Shown here: in pieces, positions 1 to 27,997 of the stretch
How the letters are laid out: the number at the start of each line of letters is the position of its first letter
Numbering within the stretch: position 1 is the first letter of the stretch
Source: Ectocarpus siliculosus
Taxonomy: Eukaryota; Sar; Phaeophyceae; Ectocarpales; Ectocarpaceae
Length of the DNA: 64,000 nt
Assembly (NCBI GenBank): GCA_000310025.1
Contig: FN649728.1
Coordinates: forward strand, 3,564,173-3,628,172
Direction of reading: 5' to 3'
Notes under the pieces: model-generated
What the model was told of the DNA's origin: nothing
The model's database searches: none
Seen by the model: the letters and a program-made list of their open reading frames with translations, nothing else
Program-made: the position numbers and the translations under genes

Positions 1-351
1 GTGCCCCCTGCACATCGACGCTCACTCCTTTCCGCCCCCGTCGCCATTTCACACGCACGTTATAGAGTGCACACACGTCTGTGATATGATCTCAATCAGA
101 GTTCAGTCCTCGTCGGTGTCATGCCTGACGCGGGTAGCTCATTTAGCGTCCGAAATACGACACATTTCACGGCGAAACGACAAATCCGTTAGCGATCCTT
201 TCGACGGCCCAAAATTATCCAAACACTACTTCAGGGGAGAATAAACCCGGTCGCCTAGCAAGAAGCACCACAATCAGTTCACTCGTGTGCTGGCTCATTT
301 GTGAATTTGATATCATATCACAGCACCCAGTTATCAGCGCCCAACACTTAC

Positions 352-3300
352 GAGTTATCGTAGAGGTCCCCCACGCGGTCGATGTATTTCTCGGCGATCA
401 GAACTAGCGGTCGCTCCCCCTTGGCCTCTAGCGCTTGTACCATCAGGTCCACCTGGGGTAAGCTTTGCGAGCGCGAAGAACATTGGAAGAAATAGTAGAT
501 AAGCACCCGTTGACTACAGGCCAACAGCTATGTGAGCAACGCGTACGAAACGCATGGGTTGTACAGGTCCACCACTTTCTGGCAGAGTTTGCCGATGTCA
601 TAAAACCAAAGGGGGCAGTGAACGGCACTCCACCCGACCGACTAAGCGCGCGTATGGTTGTAGATCAAAGTCGCCAATGTTGTCCACACAACGACTGGAA
701 GCGGGTAGTTGATGGTCAACGCAGTTGGCGATGAGACAGCGCACACAAAACGAGAGTTGGAGACAACCACTTGCTAGAAAAACGAGTACTACGTACGTGC
801 ACCCGTCTTATTAGCGGATCAAGTATTTCCCTCACGATCTCAATCGCGAAAAGAGGTACCATCAACGGGAACCCTGGTTCCCGTGGCACTGTGTTCACCT
901 GAAATGAAATGCGCTCCCCTTGTGGTAGGCAACGTTAGCAGAGTCGATCACGGCCGTGTAGGTCTTGCCGTCAGCCTGGTGAACATGCATTTGGGCAGCG
1001 GAAGCAATTGTCATCGACAACATAACATACACACAAAAAATCAGTGCGCCAGAGGTGACGCACATACTATTCTAGTGGGTGAGCGTGACAAGGCATCGTT
1101 GTGGCATTTACATGCGTGCAATAACTGCCAATGCGGTCATGGTTGGGAGCACCAAGGCCGTGAAATGAATCCCATGACATGGAGGATGCGCAAGTTCCGT
1201 CACAACCCTCCGTGGAGGCAAAAGCAACATTGAACTTCCCTCTTAACATGGGGGCAAACCCACGCAACCCGCACGGAGCTTCACTCAAAAACATCGATTG
1301 TGTTGCAACTCTTCCGGATAAATATGCGCATACGTTTGCAAGCCGTTCACTCCAGCCAACAAGAGAAAATTTCACTCCCGGGCGACCGACGGAATGCACT
1401 TCCTGCCGACACCGAACTACGCGCCGAAGGGGGATGGCAGTCTCTCATCCTCCTGCCGAGTACACTTCAGTCGGGCAAAAAAGAAGAACCGACCCGGATG
1501 GCTCGTGACACGTACTCCGAAAAAGCAGCAATTTGGTGCCCGAACTCCGCGGGGTCCTGAAGTCATGCGCCCGCACCCAGACAACCAGTCTGCATTTAGG
1601 CGTCCCCATGGCCCAAGTAAATGGCGTTCGGGTATGGTTGTTGAACGCCACAACAAACAGCGACACCACAGCACTCATCCGGCATCTTCTCGTCGACGCG
1701 TGGAGCACTGGATCGATACAACCTTACCCTTCTCTCATGCGTACTGGCCGATAGTGGTTCCACGCCACCTTCTCGCCCTTGTATGAACGCACAGACCTTG
1801 AAAATATGCTGTGTGACCGGCTAGATTGCCCTCACCCTTTGCGCGTGCAGCCAGTCGACGAAGATCTGCAGCTGTTCCTTCTGGTCCTCGTCCGTGAAGC
1901 TGTAGAAGGGGTTCTCGTTGCCTTGGCGCTGCCGGCTCCTCGCAAGCATCTTCGTGTGCCTGCAACAAGGGTGAATTGGTCAGCGCACGCGAAAGAAACA
2001 AATTTTCCGGAGACTTTTCGTCTCTCTCCGTATGCCACAGAAAGGACGTTGCAATGAATCGGAAAAATCGCGAGGCGTTCACTGATTGTATTGATTAGCC
2101 GCGAACACTTTTCACTGAATAAAACCATTCAATTTTCAACAATCATTTCTTGCCGGTCGCCCCGGTAGGCTAGTTGGTATCCTCGAAAACCAAACAATTT
2201 GTGGACAGGGTCAGGGGTTTGAATCCCGGCGCAAGGGAGCTTTTCTTGCAAAGCGATTTTTTCTCTTGCTTCCGTTCCTGGCCTGGGTGGAAAGCGCTCG
2301 ATTGTGTGTACACAGACCGAAGAGAGTGCTGTACTCTTCTCGCAAAAAAATCGAAGGCAAAGCACCGCAGGAGGGGTGAGTAGGGGCGCAAAAATGTTGT
2401 GAGCGCTGATTTGAAGTGAAGACGAAAAAGAATAAAAAAATACTTGAATAACTCTAGTTGAGAAAGGGTCATGGCTGCACCCACTACCGTGCCGATCGCG
2501 CACCAAACGAAACTACATGTAGAACATGAACGAGGTGTGCGAAAGAAGATCGAGGAGGCTATCTGCGACACGTATCGCTCCGTGCTACTGGCCTGCCGTT
2601 CAGAAACCGTAAACACATTCCCTCCATGTACTCGCGTTCACAACTACTGGGACCTTAGGCGAAATGAAACGAAAAATTTGCTGTTCCGTGTTGCTCCGCG
2701 GACATAACGGTTCCGGAATTAAGCGAATAACCTTCCAGGAGTGCAATTTACACGGGTAACAATCCAAACCGTGCACTGTCGTCGGAAGTGAATCCATCGT
2801 GAATGTCGAAGGGACTATTCCTAACGTTCCTGTCGCGTGCACGCTTTTGGCCATCTCATCACGAAAGCAGATGCGACCATCCACAACAAGAAGTACACTG
2901 CAAACCCAGACGCCATGTATTGCTCAACATCACGGCGGCATTGATGAACCCTAAAGTTTCCAAAAGTTGTTCCGAGAGTCAAGCTGTTGCTTCGAACGAG
3001 GCTACGTGCTTCGCTGGTGAGATTCGTCTCCCAGCGAGATCGACGCAATATTTTGTCTAGATCCGCGAGTTTCACAACGTCGTTCACTGTTATCGCACGG
3101 GATTCTCGCTCTTGCCTGCTTCTCGCGTGCTTCTTGACCTGCAGTCCTGCCAGACCGAACAGCGTTTCCCGGATCCTCGCCCTCTCGCCATCAGTTAGGC
3201 CGACGGCCCGGAGGGCCCCGCCGCAGGCGGGGCAGCTGTGGGGCCGTTCGGCGCGTGTCGGCTTTCTGCTGGACCACTCTCTCGTCCAGCTGTCGTCATC

Positions 3301-6300
3301 GATCTCGTGCCCGCCGGCGACCTAGGCGATACATACACCATTGCCGGCGGAGACAAGAGTTCATCTTGTTGTTTTGCTCCAGTACTTGGCGCTGCTGCTG
3401 CTGTCACCGCCGCCGCTGCTCTTGTTATGGCGTTCCCACAGAATCGTTAGCTCTATCGCATGTCACGATAGTCGATATGATATCGCCGATATCGCTCACT
3501 TCGAGTCTTCGAATTTCCTTGTAGACAAACCTCTCGGGCCGCATGCTGTTACACGCGCAAGCACCACTTCCCATCACCATCCACACAAGCAGCTCATCGC
3601 GGTATCCGACCCCACACAACTGGGAGCAGACGGAGGAATCAACATGATCATTCAGATGTTTCGAGCGATTCGATTGCCTGACATACCTTAACTCTCCGCG
3701 CTAGCGGAACGGACGATTTCACCGCCTCCGTGATAGCGAAGGCATTCGTGTCCCCCACCGCACCGGCATCGCCGTTGATGGGGATTGAAGGCGTCGCCGC
3801 TAGTGGGACCGCGTTGAAGTGCTCTTCCAGCTGTTCTACCTGGCCCATCGTAAGGTTCCTGCGCCAAATCAAGCCGCACGCCAAGATGTGAAATGCGGGG
3901 CAACGTGCAATGTGGAAAAGTCGAACCTCACGCGGGGAGGTAAATCGTGAGAAATCGGGTTGTGAACGGCCACGAGTTGTTGGCCCAATGCCATTAAGCA
4001 CGATTGTGTTCCCCAACATGGGATTGGAAGCCGGGTGATACTGCTGTGGAAGCTAGCGCTCACCTCGGCAGCGCTTGAAACCGTTTGCCTACGATTAAAT
4101 AGAGCTGCAACTGTGGTACCGAAAAGAAAACAGCCATGAAAACGACAAAGCGGAAAAGCGTCAGGTCGAACTAACACCAAAACACCACGAAAAGTATCCC
4201 AGCAGTGTTCTCGCCACCCTGAAAGAAAACAGGGGGTGTCCATGCACAACACGCAACAAGAATGCAGCAGATCATGCCACCAAACCGTTCAATTGTTGAT
4301 AAACAGGCTCAAGAAATCCACACCGCAGCTGGCACTCTCTGCCACCCACCTGGCGTGGTAGGACATCTCCAGCAGCTTCTCGTCCAGCTTTCCGGAGCGT
4401 GCGTTGTCCCACAGCTCGCCGGCAACGCTGAGGCCGCAGAGGTAGTTGACGTATTGCTCCTCGCGCGGAATGACGCCTTGCTGCTCCATGTGCTCCCACA
4501 CCTGGGGTTCATGAAAAAGAACATAAAAATGTGAAAACAACATACCATCGTCGCCCCGCAATCGACTGTGTTGCGTGTGGCTGGAAAACTTCCCAGAACG
4601 CAGGAGCATACGTGGAGGCGTGCAGGTCGTGCACACGATGCCAAGCGACGACACATGCTGGATACACGAGAGAGGGAGGGGGGGGGGGGCGGCCTGCGTG
4701 TTGAAGAATCACTTCCTGATATCTACTAAGAGCTGACAGAGAGGGTGGACCGAAAGACCTCTCAACGCGTACTCAGGCCTAACAGCAACAGACTGAGGTC
4801 TTCGGACCTGATGGAAGGTGCGCGCGAAGACGGTGAGTGATACTTATACGTGCGTAGCAAGGGCCTCAAGACTCAGAGGGATAGTGCTGAAACAGCCAGC
4901 TCCAACACCTGGTCACGTTGTTAGCAAGACACTGCGGTGCAGAGCTGGTGGATGTGTTGCGAAGCCAGTGAATTTCCAGTGCGAAACGAGAGCCTGTTTT
5001 GCGGTGGAGAATCGCCGGAGTTACCTCTCTGGCAGCGTCCATACCCCCCTCGCGGCACATTTCCGCGATGACCGGCTCGTAACACCTGTTGGAACACGCA
5101 TCAGCAAAGACACACCAGATGCGTACCACCACGACGTGTCACCTTGAAATAGTTTCAACATTACTTGGAAGGGCCCGTGTTTCGAGTTGGTGGGCACACG
5201 CAAAAAGAACATTGCACGACTACTGCACGCCATGGAAGTTGGCATAGCAAGTAGGACACAACAATATATCGGTGCATCAACTTCCGACATGCATTTGGGA
5301 TAGAAAACATACCCTTCGAACGTGTAACGACACGTGTCCCCATCCTGCTTATGATCAGGGCTGCATCACTGGTCCGACCGGGTGGTTATTGAACAAAATA
5401 GAGCACCGAAAACACAACCACGCTAGCGTAGATGTTGGGCGCTGTGCCGTTCTTAGAGCCGCCGCACCTCAGCCTGGGCTGCACCCCCTGGTTCACCATG
5501 TCTTTGATGAGATCGAAAGCGTCGTGACAGTTGCCATGGCTCACCATGCCGCGGATAAGCGGCACGTACGTGTTCTCCTCGATCACCATGCCCCTCTCTG
5601 CCATCACAAGCGAAGGAAACAAAGTTTCAGAGATCGCGCAAATATTGCACAACGATTGCAGAAACAAGACAGAAATGGCGCTTTGTGCATTCACGCAAGG
5701 AAGGAGCACCAACCATGAGCATGCCTCAGCCAAAACGCCCAAGTCCGCACAAAACAAACGTAGAAATCAATCCATCACGGGGCACAGAGTGTGCGTCATG
5801 GACGGCATGTGGAATGCGGCTGTTCGGCAATTTGTCACCACCTACACGTGACGCACGATATTGTCAAGCCGACCTACATGTTGTCACAAATGACAAGACG
5901 CACAACCTGCTTTGAAATTTCGATGGCAACATGACCGCGTAGATGAGACAGCAGGTTCTCCGTGGTTAACGCCAAAACCCCGCTCTCACACCCTGCCTCA
6001 GCAAGTGCTACAACTTTGCATCAAAGCACATGAAGAGCCTATGTACCACGTCACACGCTTCATCCCACGAGTTGAAACCAAAACATGAAACATAGGACAG
6101 GCCACAAGGGAGCTTAATACTGCAGAATCGAAGGGTACGGGAAGGGTTAGTCACGCGTGAGCGACAAACCCAAACGTCTAATGATGACGCACGCCGCCGT
6201 ACAGGGCATAGTCCAACTCGTTCGACTCTGAAAACGATCTGGCCTGTTCATACATTGTGCAGTAGATCCGGGTCCCACCGACCGCAATACCCCCCGGCTG

Positions 6301-7571
6301 CGAGACCACCAGGGATGCAGCAACTTCAGGAAGAAGCAGCCAAGTCCAAACGGAGAGTGCCCCACCTTTCATCTCCATGACGACCCTCATGCAGTCGTCC
6401 ATCAGGCCGGCCTTGGCGCACTGGTTCAGGACACCCCGGAGCAGGTTGGCCCTAAGCGCAACTCCCATCTCCATGGCCGTATTGAACGACCGAAGCGTCT
6501 CCTCGGCGGAGTCGGCCTTCAGCGCTCTGACAATCGCCACCACCGCCACACAACAACAACAACAACAACGACAACGACCACAGGCGCGTGGTTGGATTAT
6601 TTAGTGCAATTCAAGAAGTCACTGGGCGGAGGCGACAGCGGCCGTCGCTTTGTCGATAACATACCCTGCACACGCCAACCATATTCATGCACACCGTTGT
6701 CTAAGCGCCGAGTGAAATGCTGTTGGCGTTGTAATCCGAAACCGAAGACCTCTACCCGGTATTGTGTGGTTTTATAACGGGACCGCTCCTGCTACTATTC
6801 ACAACTACAACAACAACAACCACCAACATCATGAATAACGACACGCGACGACGGTAACACGATCGAGCGACTCACAGAGCGACCTCGTTCTGCAATTGCT
6901 TCTCTTCCGGCGTCTCCCTCTTCCTTTCCCTCGCCCTCCGCTTTCTGAGAGACAATCTGGCACAGCAGCCGGAGCAGCAACAACAGCAGCAGTGGTCGAC
7001 TGACGCTTCACGTACGGAAGCAGGTCGTACGTAGCGCTAGCCGGCGGAGCAAGACCGCATCAGACCACACACGCACAACCAACCGTACTCATTGTAAACC
7101 ACACGCTTCCCTGCACACGAAAGGGGTGTCGGTTAGTTCGAATACCCATGCTATTGCACGCCACAATAGAGACTTTGTATCATCTCGGCGGTTTCAGGGC
7201 CCCAGCAGGACTGGCTCGTCGAGAACAAAGATCGAGGCGAAATTATTCTATTCTGCGGAAGAACAGAACGGGCACTCGCAGCTGGTTGTCGACGTCCGGT
7301 ATAATAATCGTCAGACCAACAAGTACGGGCCGCAGCAGGACCAGCAGTGGCACCACCATCACCACAATCACCACCATAACACACTACAACAGCATCGTCA
7401 TAGAGATGCGCGGCATGTCCTGCCCCAGGGGGGGAGTCGCGACGACGATCGTTCCGATCTCACCAGGGGCTGTCAACGAGCAAAAGAACTACTGTTCCCA
7501 GGCTTGTGAAACCCAGCGCTACTGCTGTGCTGCATCGAGAGTTCTGCGGTCCGTGAAGTTCTGATCACATG

Positions 7572-14758: not shown

Positions 14759-17700
14759 TCAACTCTTGGCCTCGGCCTTAGCCTGCGTCGACTTCAGCCG
14801 TTTCGACTTGGACTTCTCGAGTGATGACATTCCAGAAGCCCCGCGAGCAGAACCGCTACCCGAGCCCTGTTAAACCGGAGGGAGAGTTTCGAAGATCTTG
14901 GATGTCGAATGCGGTGGAAAGCATCATCCGCGATACTGGGTGTTGACCAGCAGTGAGTTAATCCATGTAAGTCGCAGGGCACACTAACGGAAAAAAAATT
15001 GCGTTGGGGAAGCGCATTCACTTCCTTTCGAGACGGAAGGGAGGTGGCTTCGGGAGGGAGTTGAGCGGCCTCTGTATAATCGGCATTACAACCGCCTAGG
15101 TCGGCAACCTCTCGCGCACATGGACAAAAACAGGATTCCATCGATCGCTTCCGGGCGGGAAATCGAAAGTTTGATTACGCGAGGTGTGGGTACGCATATG
15201 TTGTGTGGGCGTACATGTAGGCCGGCGGCGGGGTGGGCGGGAGGAAGGGAACGGGGAGGACGGGATATATCGACTTTTCAAACGTTGAACATGCGACCTC
15301 TGCTCTCTTGCTCTACGTGAGGCCTTGTCAACATAGCGAGGGCGCAGCAGCAGTAAAGACAGCGCTCCCCCCGTCTTATTTCTCATCACGTTTTCCAAAC
15401 GCGTACGAAAAAATGAGAGGGAAACAACCAAACACACGCGTATTTCATGTCCATGTACTCTCTCTCTGTTTTTTTTTTTCTCTTTTCTTATTTCTTTCTT
15501 TGCCTTTCGTTCTTTCATCCATTTCACCGGCCGGGGTCGTCGATCGTCTTTATCCCGATTATCGTTTTCCTTACTGTTGATCTTTTTTCGGTTGCATCAC
15601 AAATCGCGTCTTGGAGGAATTTTCTGGTGTCCATTTTTATTTCTTTATTTTTTAGAAAGGTGTACTCCCTCCCCTATATTGGGGGCAGTTGGCTTGTGAC
15701 CACGGAAGGCGTCGTCCGCGTCAGTTGGACCAGTACGGACATTAGAAGGTACTGAGGGGAGACCGGAACGGTTTTCAATGTGAAGACAACAACAACAACA
15801 ATGTATCACAAGACAAGAGAATCCTGGGGAAACATCGATTACCTTGTTCTTAGATTTTGAGGACGGTTTAGAGTGCCCCGCTGGACGCTCGCTGGCAGCA
15901 GGAGTTGAAGCACCATTCGAACTCCCATTAGGAGCGTGTCCGTTGGGGTTGCCGTTCGTGGTGTTGCTCGAGTCTCCGCTGTAGATCCACATGGGCACCG
16001 TGAACCCGGCGGCACCCTGCAACCGCAAAACAGCAAACAAAAATGGTAAAAGGCACACAAAGGAATAGACACGGTTCGGACTGTGCGTGCACCACCAGCG
16101 CCGTCTCGGTTCTGCGGACACAGGGAGAGAGCCGCCTACTGCCACCACTCCTACCGCAAAAAAAAAAAAAAGGACCATGTACAAGCGAGAAAGCCGGATA
16201 CCAAGGAAGTGGCCAACAGCGACCACGTGCACAGGACGCAGCAACAGCCGGGCCTCGCGTTTCGACTCACAGAAAAGATGTTTCCCCCCGTGAGCGTTCC
16301 GAATGTGCACTCTTCACTTTCCCCTCACCTCTGGAGGCGGAATGTCTCCGGACTCGACAAGGCTGAGGAAGTCCTCGACCGAGGTGTTTCTCGGCATGAA
16401 GGGCGAAGGTGCGGCGGCTGAGGATGGCGATGGCGATGATGATGACGTCATGGTGCTAGTGCCGCTGCCACCGCTAGAATTGCCTCCTCCTGCACGGTGG
16501 AGAGGTTGAGGGTTGACGCGCGAAACGTGGAGAAGCGCGAATCACATCGCTGGCGAAACGGCGATAGAAATTGGGGCGCACTTGGCGGCAAGATTTTGCA
16601 GCCGCAGGCGTTGCCGAATAGAGGCATGGGGCTAGAAAGCACTTTCTCGTGCCACAGACGACATGGCGTGGGGCCCTGACCATCTTGATGACGCTGTTCC
16701 GCGTCGAAGCAGACAACCTCGTCAAGCTTGCCAGCAACCACGAACGAGAGAGAGACCGAAACCGATGCTACAACTCTCTTTGTGACCGTCCTTCCCACCA
16801 CCACCACAACCACCGCCGCCGCCACCACCCCCACCACCTCCTCCTCCTCCTCCTTTTCTTCTCCCTCCCTCTCCGTGCAACGGTCAACTGTTGGCAACAC
16901 GGCATGAACGAAAAAGATTTGATAGCATGGCACTATAACTCACACGCTCTGGTCTACCACAAAAAGGTTAGGAGCTGCCGCTTTCCACAAGGCTCATACT
17001 CTGGTGCCGCCAGCCACACGCCTTCGCGCGACAACTTCATACCACAAGCCTAACAAAGCCTAACAAAACGGCAGCAGCAACCATCGTAAGAGCACGCCCC
17101 TGCAGCCGACGAAGACCAAGTGCGCGAAATCGACGTCGCCAACTTACCTAGTCCAGATGCGGAATGGCTGTTGCTGCTGCTACTGCTCGCGATGTTGCTG
17201 CTCACACTGCCTGCTCCGTTGCCGTTTGTCGTCGGATACAGGGGAGCCCCTTCATCGAGGCTCTGGGTGAAGGTGGGTTTGGGGAAGCGGGTCAATGGAA
17301 AAAAAGAATAGGAGACATGAAAATCCCAGCAGCGGACAAGTGGCGAACTTAAGCGTGACCCGGTCATGCAAGGGTCGCGGCTTGTCCGAACAAACGAAAG
17401 GGGGAAGACGAGAGTGGGTGGGGGGGGATTATATTCACGGCAAGTGCTCCGTTCACTACTCGTTCCTTGGCAAGGCATCGCGGTGTGTGTGCGTCGAAAA
17501 CTTCAGCTGCAACGTAGTACAACACACTCAACAAAACATGTAGCGTGAGGAACACGCAATTCCTCTACGCTCTCTGTTACACTTCACCTACGTGTCTTGG
17601 CACTCCGAGCAGGCGTCCGTCAGAGTGTACGTGCATCTGCCGTGCCCCAAGCTGCAAGCTTAGACTTGCTTTCAAGGAGCAAGCTGCTACATCTCTACCC

Positions 17701-20700
17701 ACAAAGAGTAGGTGAACGTCTTCTTGATCGACACAAGGCTGAGGGTGTTGTGACTATCGCCCAGCACGGTGGTGAATGTGCTCGTTTCTTCACTTTCGTG
17801 GCGATTTCTAGGAACATTTGCGTAGGTTACATGCCCATGTTCCACCGAGGCTTACATAATCTCGGCACATCTTCACAAGCTGGTCCGACGTTCATGCTGT
17901 TCGTTCCCTACTTTGTTTGTACTCTTCCATGGTTGGGTTTCCCTTCGGTACGCACACAACACATTCTCCACTACTGGTGACTGTTCACAACAATGTTGTA
18001 CATGACGAAAGTTTTCACGGCCAGGCGGGGATATATGTTTTTGAGCACCAGCTCACCTCGGCCCCCAGCAGGCGTTCGGACAACAAGGAGGCTGCTGCTC
18101 ACTACCGTTTCGTCGACTTCGCCGACGCTGCTAGCACCGTAGTACTCTTTCTAGCAGGATTGTACCCTGTACAAACCAAACACACAACAGGGATCCTATA
18201 CGGAAAATTCCAGTTTCACATCCACGTCCGGGAACTTAACACGGAATCCGATCGCGCGAGCCATCGAGGCCATGTCCCCTCTTCACTTTAGCGTGGAGAC
18301 GACTGCTACACCCCTACAATTAGCCCGTCCAAAGCGGTCATGACGGGCGCAAGAGTCACTGCACAACTGAATCCATAGGTCGCACCATCGTGAAATGACA
18401 GCCATGGCCAATATACACCCGCCGCACAACCGAGCTGATTCCTTTCACACGCGTTTTTCATTCGTCAAATGGCGCCGCGTTAGTCGCTCGCGCGCGCGCG
18501 CGCGCTTGCCCGTGAGTCACCTGCAGGTGTTCGTACGAGCTGATCCTCGCCCATGAAGGCGTTCTCTTCAAACCGCCGTTCATCGCCTGGCCAACCGAAT
18601 CAACCCGAACCCAACCCACAACCCACACACGCCCCCGGCACGGATTTTTCTTTGAAACGAAAAACAAGGTGCGCCGTGAAAAAACAGAAGAAAGACATGT
18701 TCTGGTTTGTACTCCGGGTGTCTTTTTCTCCTGAATGCAAGCGCGCGTAAAGCGCGCGCTTGGGAAGGCAGTGGGTGCACCGCGCTCGACAAGCCTGTCG
18801 TCGATTCTTCTAGTTGGTGAAACTTCACCCCCATATCCGGCACAAAAAACGGGGAAGCACCACCTTGAGTGCCGAAGAAACACAAAACAAAACTTTATCC
18901 ACGGTTTATTGTGGTATAGAACGCGAGTCCAAGACCTAAGTGTTGGGCCAAGGCTCCTTGCCCGGGTAGCCGAAATGAGAGGGACGATTAGACTGGCCAG
19001 GGCACAAGAAAACTCGTCGAAGGACGAAGGAAAACAAAAAAAAAGCGCAAAAAACAACACATTTCGCCGGAAAGTTTGATCCAAGCCCATTTTGCACCCT
19101 CGGCAACGCAAAACAACCTCACAAAAAAAAAGAACACCGATACATACCGGGCACGCAAACACACCTTGAGAGGAGTCCCAGTCGTTGTCCCTGTCGAAGA
19201 TCCCGAAGGGGGAAAGGCGCCAGGCCACAGCCCCAGCACAGCAAGGTTGGTCATACCTTGGATGTGTGGCAGCTCCAGCAGCGAGAGGGCCTCGAGAGAT
19301 GTGGTCCGGTCGATGCCTGGATTTGTTATGTAAAAAAAAAAAAAAAAAACGATACTTAAACCAGATATGTTGAGTAGAGAGAAGAGCAGTTGAGCAACGC
19401 AACGAGGGAGGAAGAGCAAGCATCGAAAAGACAAAACAGAAAACCAACAGTTCACCCAGAGAAGACCAAACACCCAAGAGCGTGGTCTGTTAAGAGTAAG
19501 CGCACAGCGTAAAGCGTGTAAGCTGTCCATGCTCTCAAATCGAGAACCACATTTTTGCCGTCCACACGACAGCACCCTCTCCACGTTCCGTGTTGCCCAT
19601 CACAAGCTTGAAGGTACACGCACGACAGAGGATGAGGTTGGGAGAACTTCGCATGGCATTAAGGGCAACATGTGCCGATTCACGAGGCAGGACGTGGTGT
19701 TTGCACACAACGAAAACAAACAGCAACACGGTACCCCCGTGGAGGAGGAAAAGGAAGGGGGTGGCTACTCACGTAAACGAAGCCTAGTCGTTGGGCTATT
19801 GACCTCACATCCCCAAAATGCCGAGACGAAGCGACGAAGCGACATGCCCGGTTTTCGCCGGCCCAGGCGACGTTTCAAAATGAACCAGAAGCGAGTTATC
19901 ATCCTTAGCGCTTGCTGTGCCAACCCAGATACATTTACAAGGGAATATTTGCAGGCGCATCAGGCAAGTGACATCGACCGCGCTATTGTATCACACTCCC
20001 AACACCAAGACCTACCGCTTCCACCCAGGCCGGAGCTGGTGTTGAAGCCGTTGCTTGCCCCCGACCTCGATGTGCGGACACCCAAGCCTGTCCCACTGGC
20101 CGTGAGTTCCTGCGCCGCAACAAAGGGTACAGGCGGCAAGTGAGTCTTGCTCATCTCATCAACGACGGCCGGCCGACCGCATTTGACGGCGGACACCAGA
20201 CCACAACATAGTCGACCACAAGCACGCACCTGCTTGGGAACAACTGCAGCGGTACTTCCGGGGATCGCGGAAGCTACCCTCCCGTCCCCAGTCCCGGGCA
20301 ACGACGGCAGCGCGCCTCCCGCGTCTAGGAACGACGCCGGCGTGGCCGCAGCCGCACTGGTCGATGCAGGCGCACCTGGTGGGTTACGAGTGTGTCGAAA
20401 CGGTCGACCTCAGCATATGCATAGGAGCCTACATTTTCGAGCGAACAATTTCGGTTCCAACGCTCGCCATGTTGTTGCAGATCACCATCACTAGAATCAG
20501 AAGCAGTGTTGGCAGATACTACGTCAAACCGCGTTCGTAGCAGACTGTTGCAGCAATTTTCCCCTGTGTATCGAACGGAGGAGCGCGCGGTGTCGCAGCA
20601 ACGCAGCCAATGGCGACGGTACCCAGCCTCTCCTGAGGCACACACGACGCCGTGACATTTCAGCACTCTTTTAACAACCGCGACCAGCAGCAGCAAACCG

Positions 20701-23700
20701 AGGTCGAGGACCGGGACGCAGCTACAAGGTAGCGCCGCCGCCCTGCACGAAAGTGCAACACGCATCTCCACCGACACACACCATTAGCCCTTGTCGCAGC
20801 AGCCGATACACCGGACCCTGACGAAGCAGGCGGTGTTGCTGCCACTGCTGACGCCGCTGACGTTGTTGCTGCCAGGTGGTTGCCGTTAGCGATACCCGCG
20901 GCCGACCCCGCCTTGACCCCAACATCGTTTATCTCAGCTGGGGTAGCCGGGGCAGGGGCCAGAGCAGTGGTGCTCGTACCTTGAGCATTCGGTTGCTGCT
21001 GCGACGTGAGGGGCCTGTGTTGAGACTCCTGCGTTGTATTGTATAGAGCGGCGTGGAGTGCGGTATCGGACACGAATAAAAAAACACGAACACGGTAAGC
21101 ACGTCGACCATAAAACGTTCAACGATGGCTTTCCGTACCACCACTACTGTAGTGGCATTATTGCCACTATATCGAATAGTGGCATTGCCCAGATTAGTGG
21201 CATGTCCTTCTCTTGCCACTACATGGTCTTGTGCGCCTTGTGAAAGCGTAACAACGACACGTTACAGCAGCTTGACGTTTCAGGTGCAACACTGTGGACC
21301 GAATGGCTCGAAATTCAATCGAGAAGGGCTTGCAGGGTATGCCTACGAGCCACCTGAATAAGATGCCGAGCCCCCCCACTGCTTCGCGGCTTGGCGTTAC
21401 GATCTATGCTACCGCTACAACAACAACAACAACAACAACCGACGACACCAAACCTAATCATCAACAACCTTGTTACTGTCTTCAAATCAGAAACCGCTCC
21501 TGTTCAGTAACTCTCCCAAGAAAAAAAGCAGCACATAGAATACGAACCTTTTCGGGTGGGCCACCAAGCACCAGCCCGTTCGGTGCTTTCGCGACTCCCC
21601 CTGGCCCGGCATGGCTCGCGCCCAAAACGGAACTAGACGGCAACGCTGCTGATGACGGCGATGGCGCTACCTCCGCCGACCCTGGTGCTGTTGCTGCTGC
21701 CGATGATGGTGGTCGAGGTGGCGGTGTGGTGCTATTTCGCTGGTGCCCTGCCGCCTCCGCTGCTACCGCTGTTGTCTCAGCGAGCACGCCCCCTACAAAC
21801 AGCCCAGCAACGTCCGTGGCGATGACAAAAAAGTGAAGGGAGGTGGTGTTGTACTTTTCGGATGACGTGTTGCGTGATGAGTTTCGTGTCTCATTTTGGA
21901 AAAAAAAAAACAGCGGTGTGGTGCGAGTTGTGGATCAAGTGCTTGGTGGCTTCCGGCAACAGCGCGAGGATCGCCATGGGCAGACCGACCGGTAAGAACA
22001 TGTTCCAAGTTAACGCAGCTCGCCGGTATCTGTTTCGTTTAGATATAAGAGTCAAGGGCAGGTAATTCTCCGATGCTGCGCACGATTTTCCGTCCTCTGC
22101 ACCAGCAGTCCCATTGTCCCAAGCGTTCGGCATGCCATTGTGTCTTCTTGGGGTGTCTCGACTGCGGTTCGCAAGTCGGCAAAAAAACAACACAGAATCC
22201 GGCAAAAAAACAACACAGGCACACCATCGTCGACGACGGCAAAACTTGACATTTGTACTGGTGGTTGAGAGTAGCATCGTTCCATCGACAGCAGCAATTT
22301 CTTCATCCACATCTACCACCACCACCACCTAGTCGCTAACGCTGCCGTCCATCCAAAACAACCCCGCAACACCCCACGGAAAAAACTAAACCCAGCCACC
22401 GCCGTCGCGAAAAACGCCAGGAACGGACGGTAGTAGGAAGCAACTCAACCAAGAGGGAGAGAGAGCCGTACCCCTGCTGCTGCGGCTTCGCCTGATACCA
22501 AGGAGGCAAAAAAAGCAGAGCAGGTACACGGTCAAAGCAGCGAAAACCCCCGCACCTGTGGCTTCATCTGCAGGAGCCCCCGCCACGTTCGCCCTCTGCG
22601 TCGCCGCCGCGGGCGACAGCGTCCCCGCGAGAGTAACCGCAGGGGGCGACGGCGGCAGCATCCACGGCTGGGTAGCCGGAGGTGGCTGGGACGCAGCAAC
22701 GTCAGAAGGCAACGAGGAGAGGCATACAACGATTCGGTGTCGTGTGCAATAGACTGGAGATTGCTGGTGCTGTATACTTGCTTGGACGACGTGTCAGGCG
22801 TCGAACATCCGGGGAGTTTGATGAAGTTTTCATGGATTCCACGACAACAAACACGAGCGTTCGTTGTTGCAGATCTTTGCTATCAGGTAGGGCAATGCCT
22901 GTCGGCATGTAGTTGTCGGAGGGGTGTTCCACACCAAATGAATGCCACCACCGGCGGGGGGTGGATAACGGGGCGCATCCACGGGCGGCCGGTCGGTGAG
23001 ATGAACCCAGCACACACAGGCAGCCTCACTCCCATCCTCACCAGGAGACCTTGGTTGTAAAACTAGACCGGGTATATCCACTGCCGCATCCTGCCTGGGC
23101 AACCCCGAGGAACCTGAGCCGTGGGCCGCCAAGGAACCTCGAGAAAAGCTCGAAGAAAAAAAAAAAAAAATCCGGGCGACCGTACATTTACAATTTCCCA
23201 TGTTCCACCAGACGTTTACGACGCTCAAGTAGCCTACTTTTGCAGACCATTTACGGAAACAACGAGAAACACAGAGAAACACAGGACAATGACAACACGA
23301 CCAAATCACCTGATTCGGGCGCAGGAGGTCGAAGCTGCTGCCGCCTTCTTTCGAGCCTGCACAAAAAAAAAAGAACAGGCCCCCGGGGCGGGTGGCGAAG
23401 GTTTAGAGATCGAGCGACAGGGTACAGGGGAAGCATGTCCGACGGAAAAACATTGAAAGCCACAAGTAGGGGGACGCGAAACTGGGAACTCCCCTGTTGC
23501 AGCGTGCGCTGCTTCGCAGGTTGTAATTGCGGCAACAGCTGTATACCATAAAACACTAAACCACCAGCAGTTGGGACTCGTGTCCTGCAGCTATTATAGC
23601 GGGATCATGAAAGCGCGCGGGGCCGGAGGGGCCACATGCGTACAGCACAAACGTGTGCGGTGAGGGTGATGCAACTACTCTTTGCGACACGTCACCTATC

Positions 23701-24318
23701 TCCCCGCCGGTCTTGCATCGGTTCGTCATGGCTACCCGCTCCAAGAACCTCCTCTCTAGATCTGCAAGCTGAGAGCGGCTCCTCTCGATGTCGGCGGGCT
23801 GTAACCGGTCCATGTCGGCCTGCCTCCTGCGGAACACCTGGCCAAGCAACGGCGGATGTAACCCAACAGAGGCGAAGCTGTTAGAAACGACACCGAACAG
23901 ACGGACCAACACCAACACCAACAAATCAACTCACCCCCTTCGGCAGCGGAGAGTATTATCTCAAACGGGTAGTTTGTCGTTGATGATGTGTCAATCTTCT
24001 AAAAAACTGGCACCCAAAGAATAGAACAACGCCCGAAACAAAACTGACAAGATTGGGCCAACACACCAACACACAGCAGCAACGCGGAAACCAACGAAAA
24101 CGAAAAGAAATAACAAAACACAAAAAAACAAAGCGGAAAGGTTACCTGCTTCCCGATGCAGTTGCTACCCACGAACTTCTTGGAGATGCGCATGGGGTCG
24201 CAGTTGAGCAGCTTGCTCAGGAACGTTCTGAGCGTCGTTCCGTCCGTCAGCGGCAACAACCCGCTCTTGAACTCCTGGATAAGGCGGTTCGCGTAGTCCT
24301 CCTCCTACAGGAGGGTCG

Positions 24319-24356
<38 letters not shown>

Positions 24357-27300
24357 TCCAACGGCAACACATTCACAACCGCATTGTTGCTAAAATATAT
24401 CCACACGTCCATGCACGTTTGGAGTGTCACGCCCAAGTAGATTGCCACAACCGGCAAAGCGTGCCCCCGCGATTGCAACATGTACTGCACTTGTACCGGT
24501 AGCTCCGGTCGTGCACTCAAGCCAGCCCTCGCTCGCTGCCGACTGCGAAAACTTCTGACACCTCCCGCCTAAATCGAGCCAGCGAAAATCTAGAAGACGG
24601 GCCTGCATTCACCTTCCCACGTCCCGATTTTAAGACTGACGCATCATCGTTGGTCAGCCGGGCACACGGCCGCCATCGATCCCAACTCAAGACACGCACA
24701 CATGAATACCTCAGCCCCCCGTTAACACACACTGACATACTCTCTCTCGTCGGTCAATCAGATGGATAGCGTGGTCGGTACAAACGAGGGGGAAACACAA
24801 GCCCACACGTCCACTGCAGCACAAACAACACTATCGTACCTCGGACGTCCACTTCCCTCTCCTCAACCCGTTCGGCTTCTTCGCTTTCGCCTGCACCGCC
24901 GCCGCCGCCGCCGCTGCCGCTGCCGCCGCTGCCGCCGCCGCCCCCATCGCGCTAGCGCCCCCCTGCAGCCCCAGGAACCCACTGCCCCCGCCCTGCTGAA
25001 ACTGCTGCAAGTGATGGTGGTGATGGTGACCCCCCGCCGCCGCCGCCGCCGCCGCTGCCCCCATCGCCCCAAAAGCGGCCGCGTGCTGCTGCTGCTGCTG
25101 CCGCTGGGCCGCGTTGTAGATGTGGCCGTTGCTGTGGCCCGGGGCCACCACGGTGGGCCGGGCGGCGACGACGACACCGGGGTGCTGCTGTTGCCGATGC
25201 GTCGCCGGCGACGCACCGGCAGCCGAGGGGGCGGCCGCGGCTGCCGCCGCTGCTGCTGCTGCTGCGGCGGCGGCGGCGTTGCTTGTGTACGAAGTGGCGA
25301 TCGCGTTCGATCTCGCTACCCTCGCCGCCGCCGCCGCCGCCGTCGCGGCGGCGTGGGCCCGCTGTTGCTGCTGCGCCGTCGCCACCGCTTTCGCGTAGGC
25401 GGCGGCCTGGGCCGGGGTCGGAGCCGCCGCTACCGGCACGGGGGCCTTGGTGGCTGCGCGCTGCAGCTGCGGTTGTTGTTGAGAGACTGCTGTACCGCAA
25501 CATAGTTCAGGGGGGCGTGGAAAAAAAAAAAAAAATGTGTGTGAGAAGTTCAGCGGTACTCCAAAACACAACACAAAATGCCACCGGAAAAAAACAGGTC
25601 TCCGCGTGTACGACGAACACCTTACGCAGTGCGAAGGACATGACGATGCCAGCTGACGTGTTGGTCTTCACAGCCCTGTCATACTCAAGGTTGCGGAATA
25701 TACCACACCCCCTGGGCCGATCGATTATAGGACGAATAGTATGTCACACACCCTGGACCGATTTCCAAAGCTCCACTGCTCCACAGCAGAAGAAGTGGCG
25801 ATGGCGGAAATGGTGGCGGCATTGGAACTGCCTCGTCGAAAGTTTCCGAAAATCATTATTTTGATTTCGGCATCGTCTTCGTCGTGGAACAACAGAGGTT
25901 TGAAATTCGGCCCGGGGTGTGTGGTATCTACGGTACGGTACGGTACTCCAAGATGAAGAGGATGCATACGTCAAGTTATACGTGTTCCCAACACAGCCAT
26001 TTCCGGCACCTTATGCTCCCCTACGGCATGGTTCAGCGCCACCCAAGCAAGCGAAATACTCATCAGACGTCCCAGGTACACTTTCGCATCGTTGTGCTCG
26101 GGGAAGGCCTTCCAATCAGCAAAATACCAAAACTGGGGGGGGGGGGGGGGCAGCATTGATACAAAAGTCTCGCCCTAGCGCCACAGGCGGCGAGGACAGC
26201 CATCCCTGAGAATGTGACAAGACGGCCGAACCATCTGGGAGAACGACCTCTGTTTGTTTCCATTCAGCACGCGTTGTTCTGCCTTTCCTCGTCTACTCTG
26301 GAAGGCTACATCGCTCTCTTCGGATAGAAAGATTGGAAACCAGAACCGAGATACCATCTCGAGCAACCTTTGGTTTGCCCTTTTCCCGTCTACTCTGGAC
26401 GGCTGGATCACTCTCTTGAACCGAAAGATCCGAAGCAAAATTCCAGAAGTTCACGTAGGGTCTTCACGGTACCACAGCCCACAACAACAACAAAAACGAT
26501 ACCACAACAGCTGTCATTACCACACCCAGGCAACAATGATAACACCCACACCAACCTAAATATCAACAACTAGAGCATCAACGACAGCAGACGCCGCAGC
26601 TGCAACAACAGCAGCAGCAGCAGCCCTAGCAACACGACCGGCATCACCAGACCAACCCTCGACACCAACAGCAAACAACAGCAAACAGCCTGCAACCCCA
26701 GCCGCCCTCAACAGCGAGCGCCACCAACACCTAACATGCCAAGACTCCCAAGCAAAACCGTGCGCTGACCTGGCCTCGCAATCACCCCATCAGCAACCGC
26801 AGCCGCTCTGCCAGCCGCCTCGATCGCAATCGTACCGCTAGTGCTCCTGCACGTCTCTCTCCCCCCCCCCCCTCCCGCCACCGTCGCCACCGCCACTCCC
26901 GGCGTAACTCTGGGGGAAATCCCTGCCGCGAAACGGTCGGTGTGCAAGAGTTTTATTATTCAAAATGGAAATGCTTGACGAACACGTCAGGAAAGTGTTC
27001 CTCACGACGTAGGTATCGCCAGGCTGCATGGTGTGTTATGGCTCATACCGTGCGTCGCTAGTGCCGTTCGTCGGCTTTGCCTGACCACCTGACTGATGCC
27101 AGGTGAGCACCTGTGGGAACGGAAAGGTCGCTAGCTTGGGGTGCTGTTGCTATTCGAGATTGTAAATGTCGTGAAAATGCCCCCGAGAAACGCTGGTTTC
27201 GATCAAAAAACATTTTCGAGGAGAATAGTCCATGGATATCTGCTCACGACCCCTCCTCACGCCCTCGAACGTTTGACGCCAAAAACACATGGTCGTGGTC

Positions 27301-27744
27301 GGCGGCCCGGTTTCAAATGAAGGCTCTTCAGGGACAACAGCAGCGCCAGCTAGGGGAAAGACTCACCTCCCGTCACCACCGGCGCCCCCGCTGCTGCTGC
27401 CGTGACCACTAGCCCCGCTCCAGGGCTTGGCGCCGCGGCAGCGGCAGCGCCAGTTGCCTCTGGCGGAACCCGCGCTGCCACCGCCACCGCCACCGCCGTC
27501 GCCGCCGCCGCTGTTGCTGCTGCCAGTGCCGGTTGCAGCCTTGCGGCATCAGCTACCCCGGAGATTGTACCGCAGGCAGGAACAGCGGCTGACACTGGTC
27601 GTGCCGTTGCTGCTGCTGCTGCTACTGTTGGTTGGGCCGCCTTTGTTGCCGACGCTGCTACTGCTGCTCTCGCGATGGAAGGGGCAGAGGAGTTGGTGGG
27701 GGCGGCGGCGGCGGTATTGGTAGAAGATGCCATGACCACCGACG

Positions 27745-27793
<49 letters not shown>

Positions 27794-27997
27794 ACCAGGT
27801 GCTGCTGGTGGCGGTGCGGGTGCCATCGCGGGTGTCGTGGCCGCTACCGCTGCCGCTGCCGCTGTCGGTGGCGGTGCTCGAGATGGTGGTGCTCCTGCCG
27901 GTACCGCCGCTGCTGTCACTGCAGGTACTACTGTTGGCACCGCTACTGCTCTCGCGGCTGTTGTCGGGGCTGCTGTGGCGCTCCCGTTGGAGGCCAT
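14759..27997 (-). CDS. 17-exon conserved protein with GKWT...CDPMRISKKF domain; probable nuclear regulator
   Basis: Exons joining in phase: 27997-27367, 26922-26770, 25489-24840, 24304-24146, 23837-23736, 22685-22556, 21792-21548, 21028-20782, 20375-20230, 20109-20016, 19316-19165, 18150-18057, 17787-17699, 17262-17148, 16489-16329, 16016-15843, 14866-14759 (stop TGA at 14759-14761); about 1149 aa. Exon 1 is Ala/Pro/Ser-rich with a Ser run; exon 3 has Ala and Gln runs, HHHHHH and ends KKPNGLRRGKWTSE. Exons 4-5 hold the conserved core: EEDYANRLIQEFKSG, TTLRTFLSKLLN, CDPMRISKKFVGSNCIGKQ and the helical VFRRRQADMDRLQPADIERS. The rest is low-complexity except MPRNTSVEDFLSLVESGDIP near the C-terminus and a Lys-rich end (EKSKSKRLKSTQAKAEAKS). 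I recall this core from uncharacterised diatom and oomycete proteins; that is memory, not a search. The GKWT-E-E start is loosely Myb-like and the flanks resemble activation domains, so a transcriptional role is an inference. Exons 12-13 are the least certain. Confidence 0.75.
21148..21223. repeat. Inverted repeat cluster (TGTAGTGGCA / TGCCACTACA)
   Basis: TGTAGTGGCA at 21148-21157 is the exact reverse complement of TGCCACTACA at 21214-21223. Between them AGTGGCAT recurs twice and TTGCCACTAT once, so several alternative hairpins can form. It sits in the intron between exons 21792-21548 and 21028-20782 of the minus-strand gene. Confidence 0.7.
24322..24351 (+). repeat. (CAG)10 microsatellite beside an exon acceptor
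   Basis: Ten CAG units in the intron just upstream, in transcription sense, of the acceptor for exon 24304-24146. The sense strand is CTG, so it may double as part of the polypyrimidine tract. Confidence 0.95.
26260..26450. repeat. 97-bp imperfect tandem duplication
   Basis: GTCTACTCTGG at 26291 recurs at 26388, and the surroundings (TGCCTTTCCTC...GCTCTCTTCGGATAGAAAGAT against TGCCCTTTTCC...ACTCTCTTGAACCGAAAGAT) align at a 97-bp offset with scattered differences. It lies in an intron of the 17-exon gene. Outer limits are approximate. Confidence 0.65.
27747..27791 (+). repeat. (CTG)15 run coding poly-Ser
   Basis: Fifteen CTG units inside exon 1 of the minus-strand 17-exon gene, read as AGC codons giving a run of about 16 Ser. 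A coding microsatellite likely to vary in length between individuals. Confidence 0.9.

Follow-up and report, generated by a model that had tools for sequence, protein, structure and literature searches.

A 64,000-nucleotide stretch of the Ectocarpus siliculosus genome (C3:3564173-3628172, referred to here as the window) contains a real gene on its minus strand, and the protein that it encodes is rich in repeats and has a small conserved core. This core is encoded by three spliced exons, it has relatives at four other loci in the same genome, and its first helix resembles that of Myb repeats in profile comparisons. We propose, with a probability of roughly 0.5, that the gene encodes a nuclear, probably DNA-binding regulator: a low-complexity protein whose core has a first helix like that of Myb/SANT domains and a second half that is distinct. 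What we infer is that the protein is nuclear, that its second half is arranged like a helix-turn-helix, that it binds DNA, and that it acts in transcription.

The window has a GC content of 53%, and its genes are intron-rich. Exons were scored with a codon model for which kinase and AAA exons from the same genome were the training set (51 were taken, 10 were dropped for stops, N, or length, and 41 were used). The upstream core exon (24840..25466, minus strand; 5' border uncertain) has an open frame with a codon log-odds of +58.4 bits, and two plus-strand frames score +22.5 and +13.8. It encodes Ala, Gln, Gly, and His runs and ends in KAKKPNGLRRGKWTSE, which comprises a basic stretch and the first part of the conserved core, including GLRRGKWTSE at the exon end, 24840. 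Its donor is GTCCGAG|GTACG. Core intron 1 (24305..24839, minus strand) is 535 nt long and in phase 0. The core exon that follows (24146..24304, minus strand) encodes EEDYANRLIQEFKSGLLPLTDGTTLRTFLSKLLNCDPMRISKKFVGSNCIGKQ. It is open, bounded by GT-AG, and codon-biased, scoring +33.4 bits in this frame and at most +2.5 in the other five. After core intron 2 (23838..24145, minus strand; 308 nt, phase 0) comes the third core exon (23696..23837, minus strand), which encodes VFRRRQADMDRLQPADIERSRSQLADLERRFLER in an open frame with GT-AG borders and is weakly conserved. The original prediction ends this exon at 23736; with a donor at 23696 instead, it gains VAMTNRCKTGGEIG, which is similar to the continuation of the relative on C3 (L002). 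This longer form, 23837-23696, scores +14.2 bits, with the other five frames again at +2.5 or less.

The core is about 65 to 95 residues long, and the full 95-residue spliced version runs from KKPNGLRRGKWTSE to LERV. Its pattern is GKW-x-x-EEE...F..G.L...DGTTLR.FL...L.C.PMRISKKF.G...IGK, followed by a helical LxxLE stretch. In L002, a phase-0 intron lies two codons before the point of window intron 1, and the acceptor of L005 is in the same place as that of L002; we looked for the upstream exon of L005 and did not find it. A perfect triplet repeat (10.7 CAG copies, window 24322-24353) lies in the intron just 5' of the core exon acceptor and is possibly length-variable.

When the core was used to query its own genome (189 Mb in 492 contigs), there were six matches: two to exons of the window gene and one to each of four other loci, at C3 6664781 (+), C7 2070426 (+), C6 1270361 (-), and C21 1318842 (+). 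Three of these relatives look intact and one is degenerate, and the intact-looking ones have diverged to 40 to 49% identity. The joined window core and the C3 copy are 45% identical over residues 2-87. Three of the relatives were also used as queries. The C3 relative recovered all five loci, with C21 at just E 0.09. The C21 relative missed C6, and the C6 relative missed C21 and gave an extra match on C18. We rejected this candidate sixth member (C18:335151, E 6.37) as chance; its translation lacks the motif.

In-frame exon joins are also found in the relatives: GKWT|SEEEALTAR in C3, PMR|VTKKLHG in C6, and NCSPS|RLSKKLK in C21, the last two running through split codons. The C21 copy is missing four residues after LSKKLK, and a GKW exon was looked for near the C6 copy and not found. 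The closest paralogue of the core is the C7 copy (L013 7452-8568), which has its own GLRRGKWTPEEEKYANR exon with KxKPxGLRRGKWTxEEE conserved. Its second exon contains a stop, and residues there are disturbed, next to homopolymer runs and N; this copy is a pseudogene or a product of poor assembly.

An alignment of the five sequences has 14 invariant columns, including F, G, GT, C, P, R, and KK. Differences at codon positions 1, 2, and 3 between the window and the C3 copy number 19, 12, and 28 in 53 codons; the corresponding values are 10, 7, and 18 in 43 codons for C7 and 17, 12, and 21 in 39 for C6. This excess at third positions is as expected of a constrained protein, on few codons and with no formal test applied. 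To gauge how far conservation reaches, we compared window open reading frames (ORFs) of at least 25 codons, from 12 to 30 kb, with the paralogue regions by tblastn at E 0.01. The core exon matched, also through overlapping and antisense frames. Dispersed repeats matched as well, at about 15.7 and 25.8 kb, and one 28% match at 27.2 kb (E 0.008) is unexplained. The third core exon alone had no match in the paralogue regions at this threshold, and it aligns only within the joined core. At the DNA level, triplet-rich parts of the upstream exon also matched, as did the GKWT exon in C7 and a stretch of 51 bases at 19.8 kb. The original prediction held that the exons 24304-24146 and 23837-23736 are both strongly conserved. 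This is borne out for the first, with its four other loci, and the second is conserved only weakly.

Five dispersed loci, one of them degenerate, with dispersed repeats close by, could also mean that the domain came from a mobile element or a virus and was spread by transposition. We consider this very improbable. Apart from the dispersed repeats, the copies have little but the domain in common. Introns lie in or beside the domain, and the three intact-looking copies are diverged to the extent given above. Three scans of viral contigs returned 15, 68, and 7 pattern stretches, none confirmed as a core relative, and a tblastn search of a phage set with the core had no match. Two scans of prokaryote genome contigs, with 12 and 19 pattern stretches, likewise confirmed no core relative.

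Neither Pfam nor NCBIfam recognised the window core (the Pfam scan returned 0 families). PF00249, the Myb/SANT repeat, marked 56 sites in a search of the genome, none of them at the five family loci. The core had been predicted to lack a recognised domain, to lie within a low-complexity protein, and possibly to be a regulator. These blank library results agree with that, 83 of the 208 residues of the upstream exon are Ala and 21 are Gln, and a regulator role is plausible. However, the core is not wholly unrelated to known domains. For comparison we took 20 Myb repeats from this genome and kept 19, dropping L072 for a stop; the ends THAQKY, THGQKY, and THHQKY occur among them. Together with the intron-rich genes and the GC content, these ends fit a brown alga. 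For the whole core, 0 of 200 shuffles reached the score. For the N-terminal part, the profile probability was 93% over 19 columns and 0 of 100 shuffles were as good, although one shuffle value in this hhalign control is probably a stale read-out. The part that matches the Myb first helix is the first 19 to 20 residues, with the W and acidic run (WTxEE) present. By contrast, for the part after SGLLP, 58 of 100 shuffles were as good, so a likeness to helix 2-turn-helix 3 was not found.

In a brown algal MYB survey (PMC8854648), Myb repeats are defined by three regularly spaced Trp in 50 to 53 residues, the third often replaced. The survey, which took PF00249 as its starting point, describes THAQKY-type motifs for brown algae and reports THAQKY in a slime mould as well. 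The window core shares with the PF00249 repeat a basic lead-in and a GKWTxEEE first helix. Unlike that repeat, it has one of the three spaced Trp (the W of GKW is its sole Trp), its second half is not Myb-like, and PF00249 does not mark it. As in the brown algal 1R-MYB family of the THAQKY type (PMC8854648), there is a single Myb-like unit with low-complexity flanks, but the window core is without a THAQKY-like third helix and a second Trp. Because the spaced Trp, the similarity to helices 2 and 3, and the family profile are all lacking, we do not file the core as a Myb protein. A clear match to a well-known domain such as Myb was what the original prediction set against itself; judged from the sequence, the first helix is Myb-like and there is still no clear Myb match.

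The only PDB match was SNAPC4 (SNAP190; PDB 7xur), at E 2.3 with the window protein and E 1.2 with profile A3, neither of them significant. The SNAPC4 stretches matched by profile A3 are, as we recognise them in the alignment, presumably the starts of its Myb repeats. The match stops after the first helix. A low-confidence AlphaFold model of the core has helices at EDYANRLIQEFK and LRTFLSKL, plus a three-residue helix at PMR, and no structural match was found for it. Two other candidates, PF20859 (E 0.036, in one of four members) and the aminotransferase 3ceb (E 0.96), were treated as chance.

Two other readings of the core use the same observations. The main rival is a SANT-like domain whose targets are proteins or histones and not DNA, with the part past the first helix serving chromatin-complex assembly. 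The restriction of Myb likeness to the first helix is in its favor, and the LxxLE helix after the core suggests protein contacts. However, MRISKKF...IGK(Q/R) is a basic segment in which several of the 14 invariant columns lie, and nucleic acid is the better fit for it; we regard protein binding of this kind as unlikely. Still less probable, in our estimate, is an RNA-binding or otherwise nucleic-acid-linked protein whose GKWTxEEE start came to look Myb-like by convergence. The lack of a Pfam domain, the absence of a Myb match in the second half, and the basic character of the core would suit it, but the likeness of helix 1 to Myb repeats of the same genome is far above that of shuffles.

A DNA-binding regulator might work as follows. 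At the start of the core there would be a basic stretch and a first helix of Myb/SANT type (GLRRGKWTSEEEDYANRLIQEF), which may pack against a lineage-specific helix pair. A conserved loop, SGLLPLTDGTT, would lead into the second helix, LRTFLSKLL. The basic segment PMRISKKF.G...IGKQVFRRR could then be the recognition element, presenting a basic contact surface, and the putative amphipathic helix LADLERRFLE could mediate pairing or partner recruitment. The Ala, Gln, Gly, and His runs around the core may be disordered effector arms.

How far the gene extends beyond the core is less clear. The original prediction placed the core in a 17-exon gene spanning 14759 to 27997, with coordinates given for 2 of the 17 exons, and took phase held across 16 junctions as evidence for it. 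That argument fails. When chains were built by rules only (GT-AG, stop-free, in phase, loose length), the real strand allowed 85 exons, the opposite strand 81, and each of 10 Markov sequences 85 to 88. With codon and splice scoring, using splice weights set by hand, the real strand gave 21 exons and 141 bits, and the reversed sequence gave 23 exons and 136 bits. The plus strand gave 16 in-phase exons and 63 bits, and four other window stretches and strands gave 7 to 14 exons and 16 to 43 bits. Twenty Markov sequences gave at most 7 exons and 11.6 bits, but these are an easy null that keeps dinucleotide make-up and not triplet repeats, whereas the reversed sequence retains the repeats. Because the Markov, opposite-strand, and reversed controls also give long chains, in-phase joining is no evidence. 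Much of the chain score seems to come from triplet repeats, which survive reversal. Except for the core and the exon upstream of it, the 17-exon model is unproven.

The putative first exon (27365..27997, minus strand) is an open Ala-rich frame from an ATG at 27997; the plus strand is also open there, and the exon scores -73.5 bits, without codon-usage support. A perfect triplet repeat of 16.3 TGC copies, possibly length-variable, lies inside it (window 27745-27793). On the 3' side, a possible exon at 16329..16417 (minus strand) has the peptide NTSVEDFLSLVESGDIPPPE at 16329-16388, with a helix-like motif. It scores +5.1 bits, and a plus-strand frame scores higher, at +7.8. A possible next exon at 15923..16016 (minus strand) encodes GAAGFTVPMWIYSGDSSNTTNGNPNGHAPNG, which includes VPMWIYSGD, and scores +7.9 bits. 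These two exons, at about 16.4 and 16.0 kb, may form the 3' end of the core gene, but for both this attribution is unproven. Searches of the genome with NTSVEDFLSLVESGDIPPPE and GAAGFTVPMWIYSGDSSNTTNGNPNGHAPNG matched the window alone, and Pfam had nothing for NTSVEDFLSLVESGDIPPPE. The 3' peptide SVEDFLSLVESGDIPPPE was rejected as a second shared domain; it occurs only in the window and Pfam did not recognise it. It may resemble other stramenopile proteins.

We consider it nearly an even call that the 17-exon model runs at least two genes together, with the core in a shorter one, a view compatible with a DNA-binding regulator and with the other readings of the core. In-phase joining is uninformative, a simple dynamic-programming model chains nearly the whole window together, and most exons past the core and its upstream exon are weak in codon score. 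However, the next recognised same-strand gene starts only near 6944, so one long gene could fill the space; 6.9 to 14.8 kb was not covered by a homology search for genes. That neighbor, downstream of the core gene (window about 350-6944, minus strand), is PRORP-like (PF17177 PPR_long, E 2.5e-21) and probably encodes an organellar protein-only RNase P.

Two repeats lie within the 14759-27997 span. Upstream of the core is an inverted-repeat element (window 25700-25929) with arms at 25745-25784/25884-25923 (78%) and 25700-25720/25907-25927 (90%). It looks like a miniature inverted-repeat transposable element (MITE), and copies that are 71 to 74% related are found near the C21 and C3 paralogues. 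The other is a dispersed repeat of about 100 bp (window 15683-15802), parts of which recur in the neighborhood of the C3 and C21 paralogues.

In 5.39 million open papers, CDPMRISKKF, MRITKKF, and MRISKKF are absent as motif strings. Of six shorter motif strings, "mriskk" alone occurs, in 7 cardiology papers whose titles and abstract starts point to chance (MRI, risk). The core family is unnamed in the titles and abstract starts returned by topic searches, which does not prove that no such paper exists. The original prediction linked the core to diatom and oomycete proteins and suggested a stramenopile-specific regulator; such relatives may exist and are a lead only, as this genome was the one eukaryotic genome covered by the searches. 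After its Myb-like start, the core departs from the family libraries searched and is probably an undescribed gene regulator.

We tentatively suggest, at somewhat less than even odds, that the core represents a lineage-restricted DNA-binding class that combines the first helix of Myb/SANT with a different second half (DGTTLRxFL...CxPMRISKKFxGxxxIGK), forming a small family of transcription regulators. Because Pfam does not detect the window core, Pfam-based counts would miss this family, and an inventory based on PF00249, like the brown algal MYB survey, would be blind to it because PF00249 marks none of its five loci. The small size of the core makes direct binding tests feasible, and should it bind DNA, it would add a class of regulator to the brown algal lineage, in which multicellularity evolved independently.
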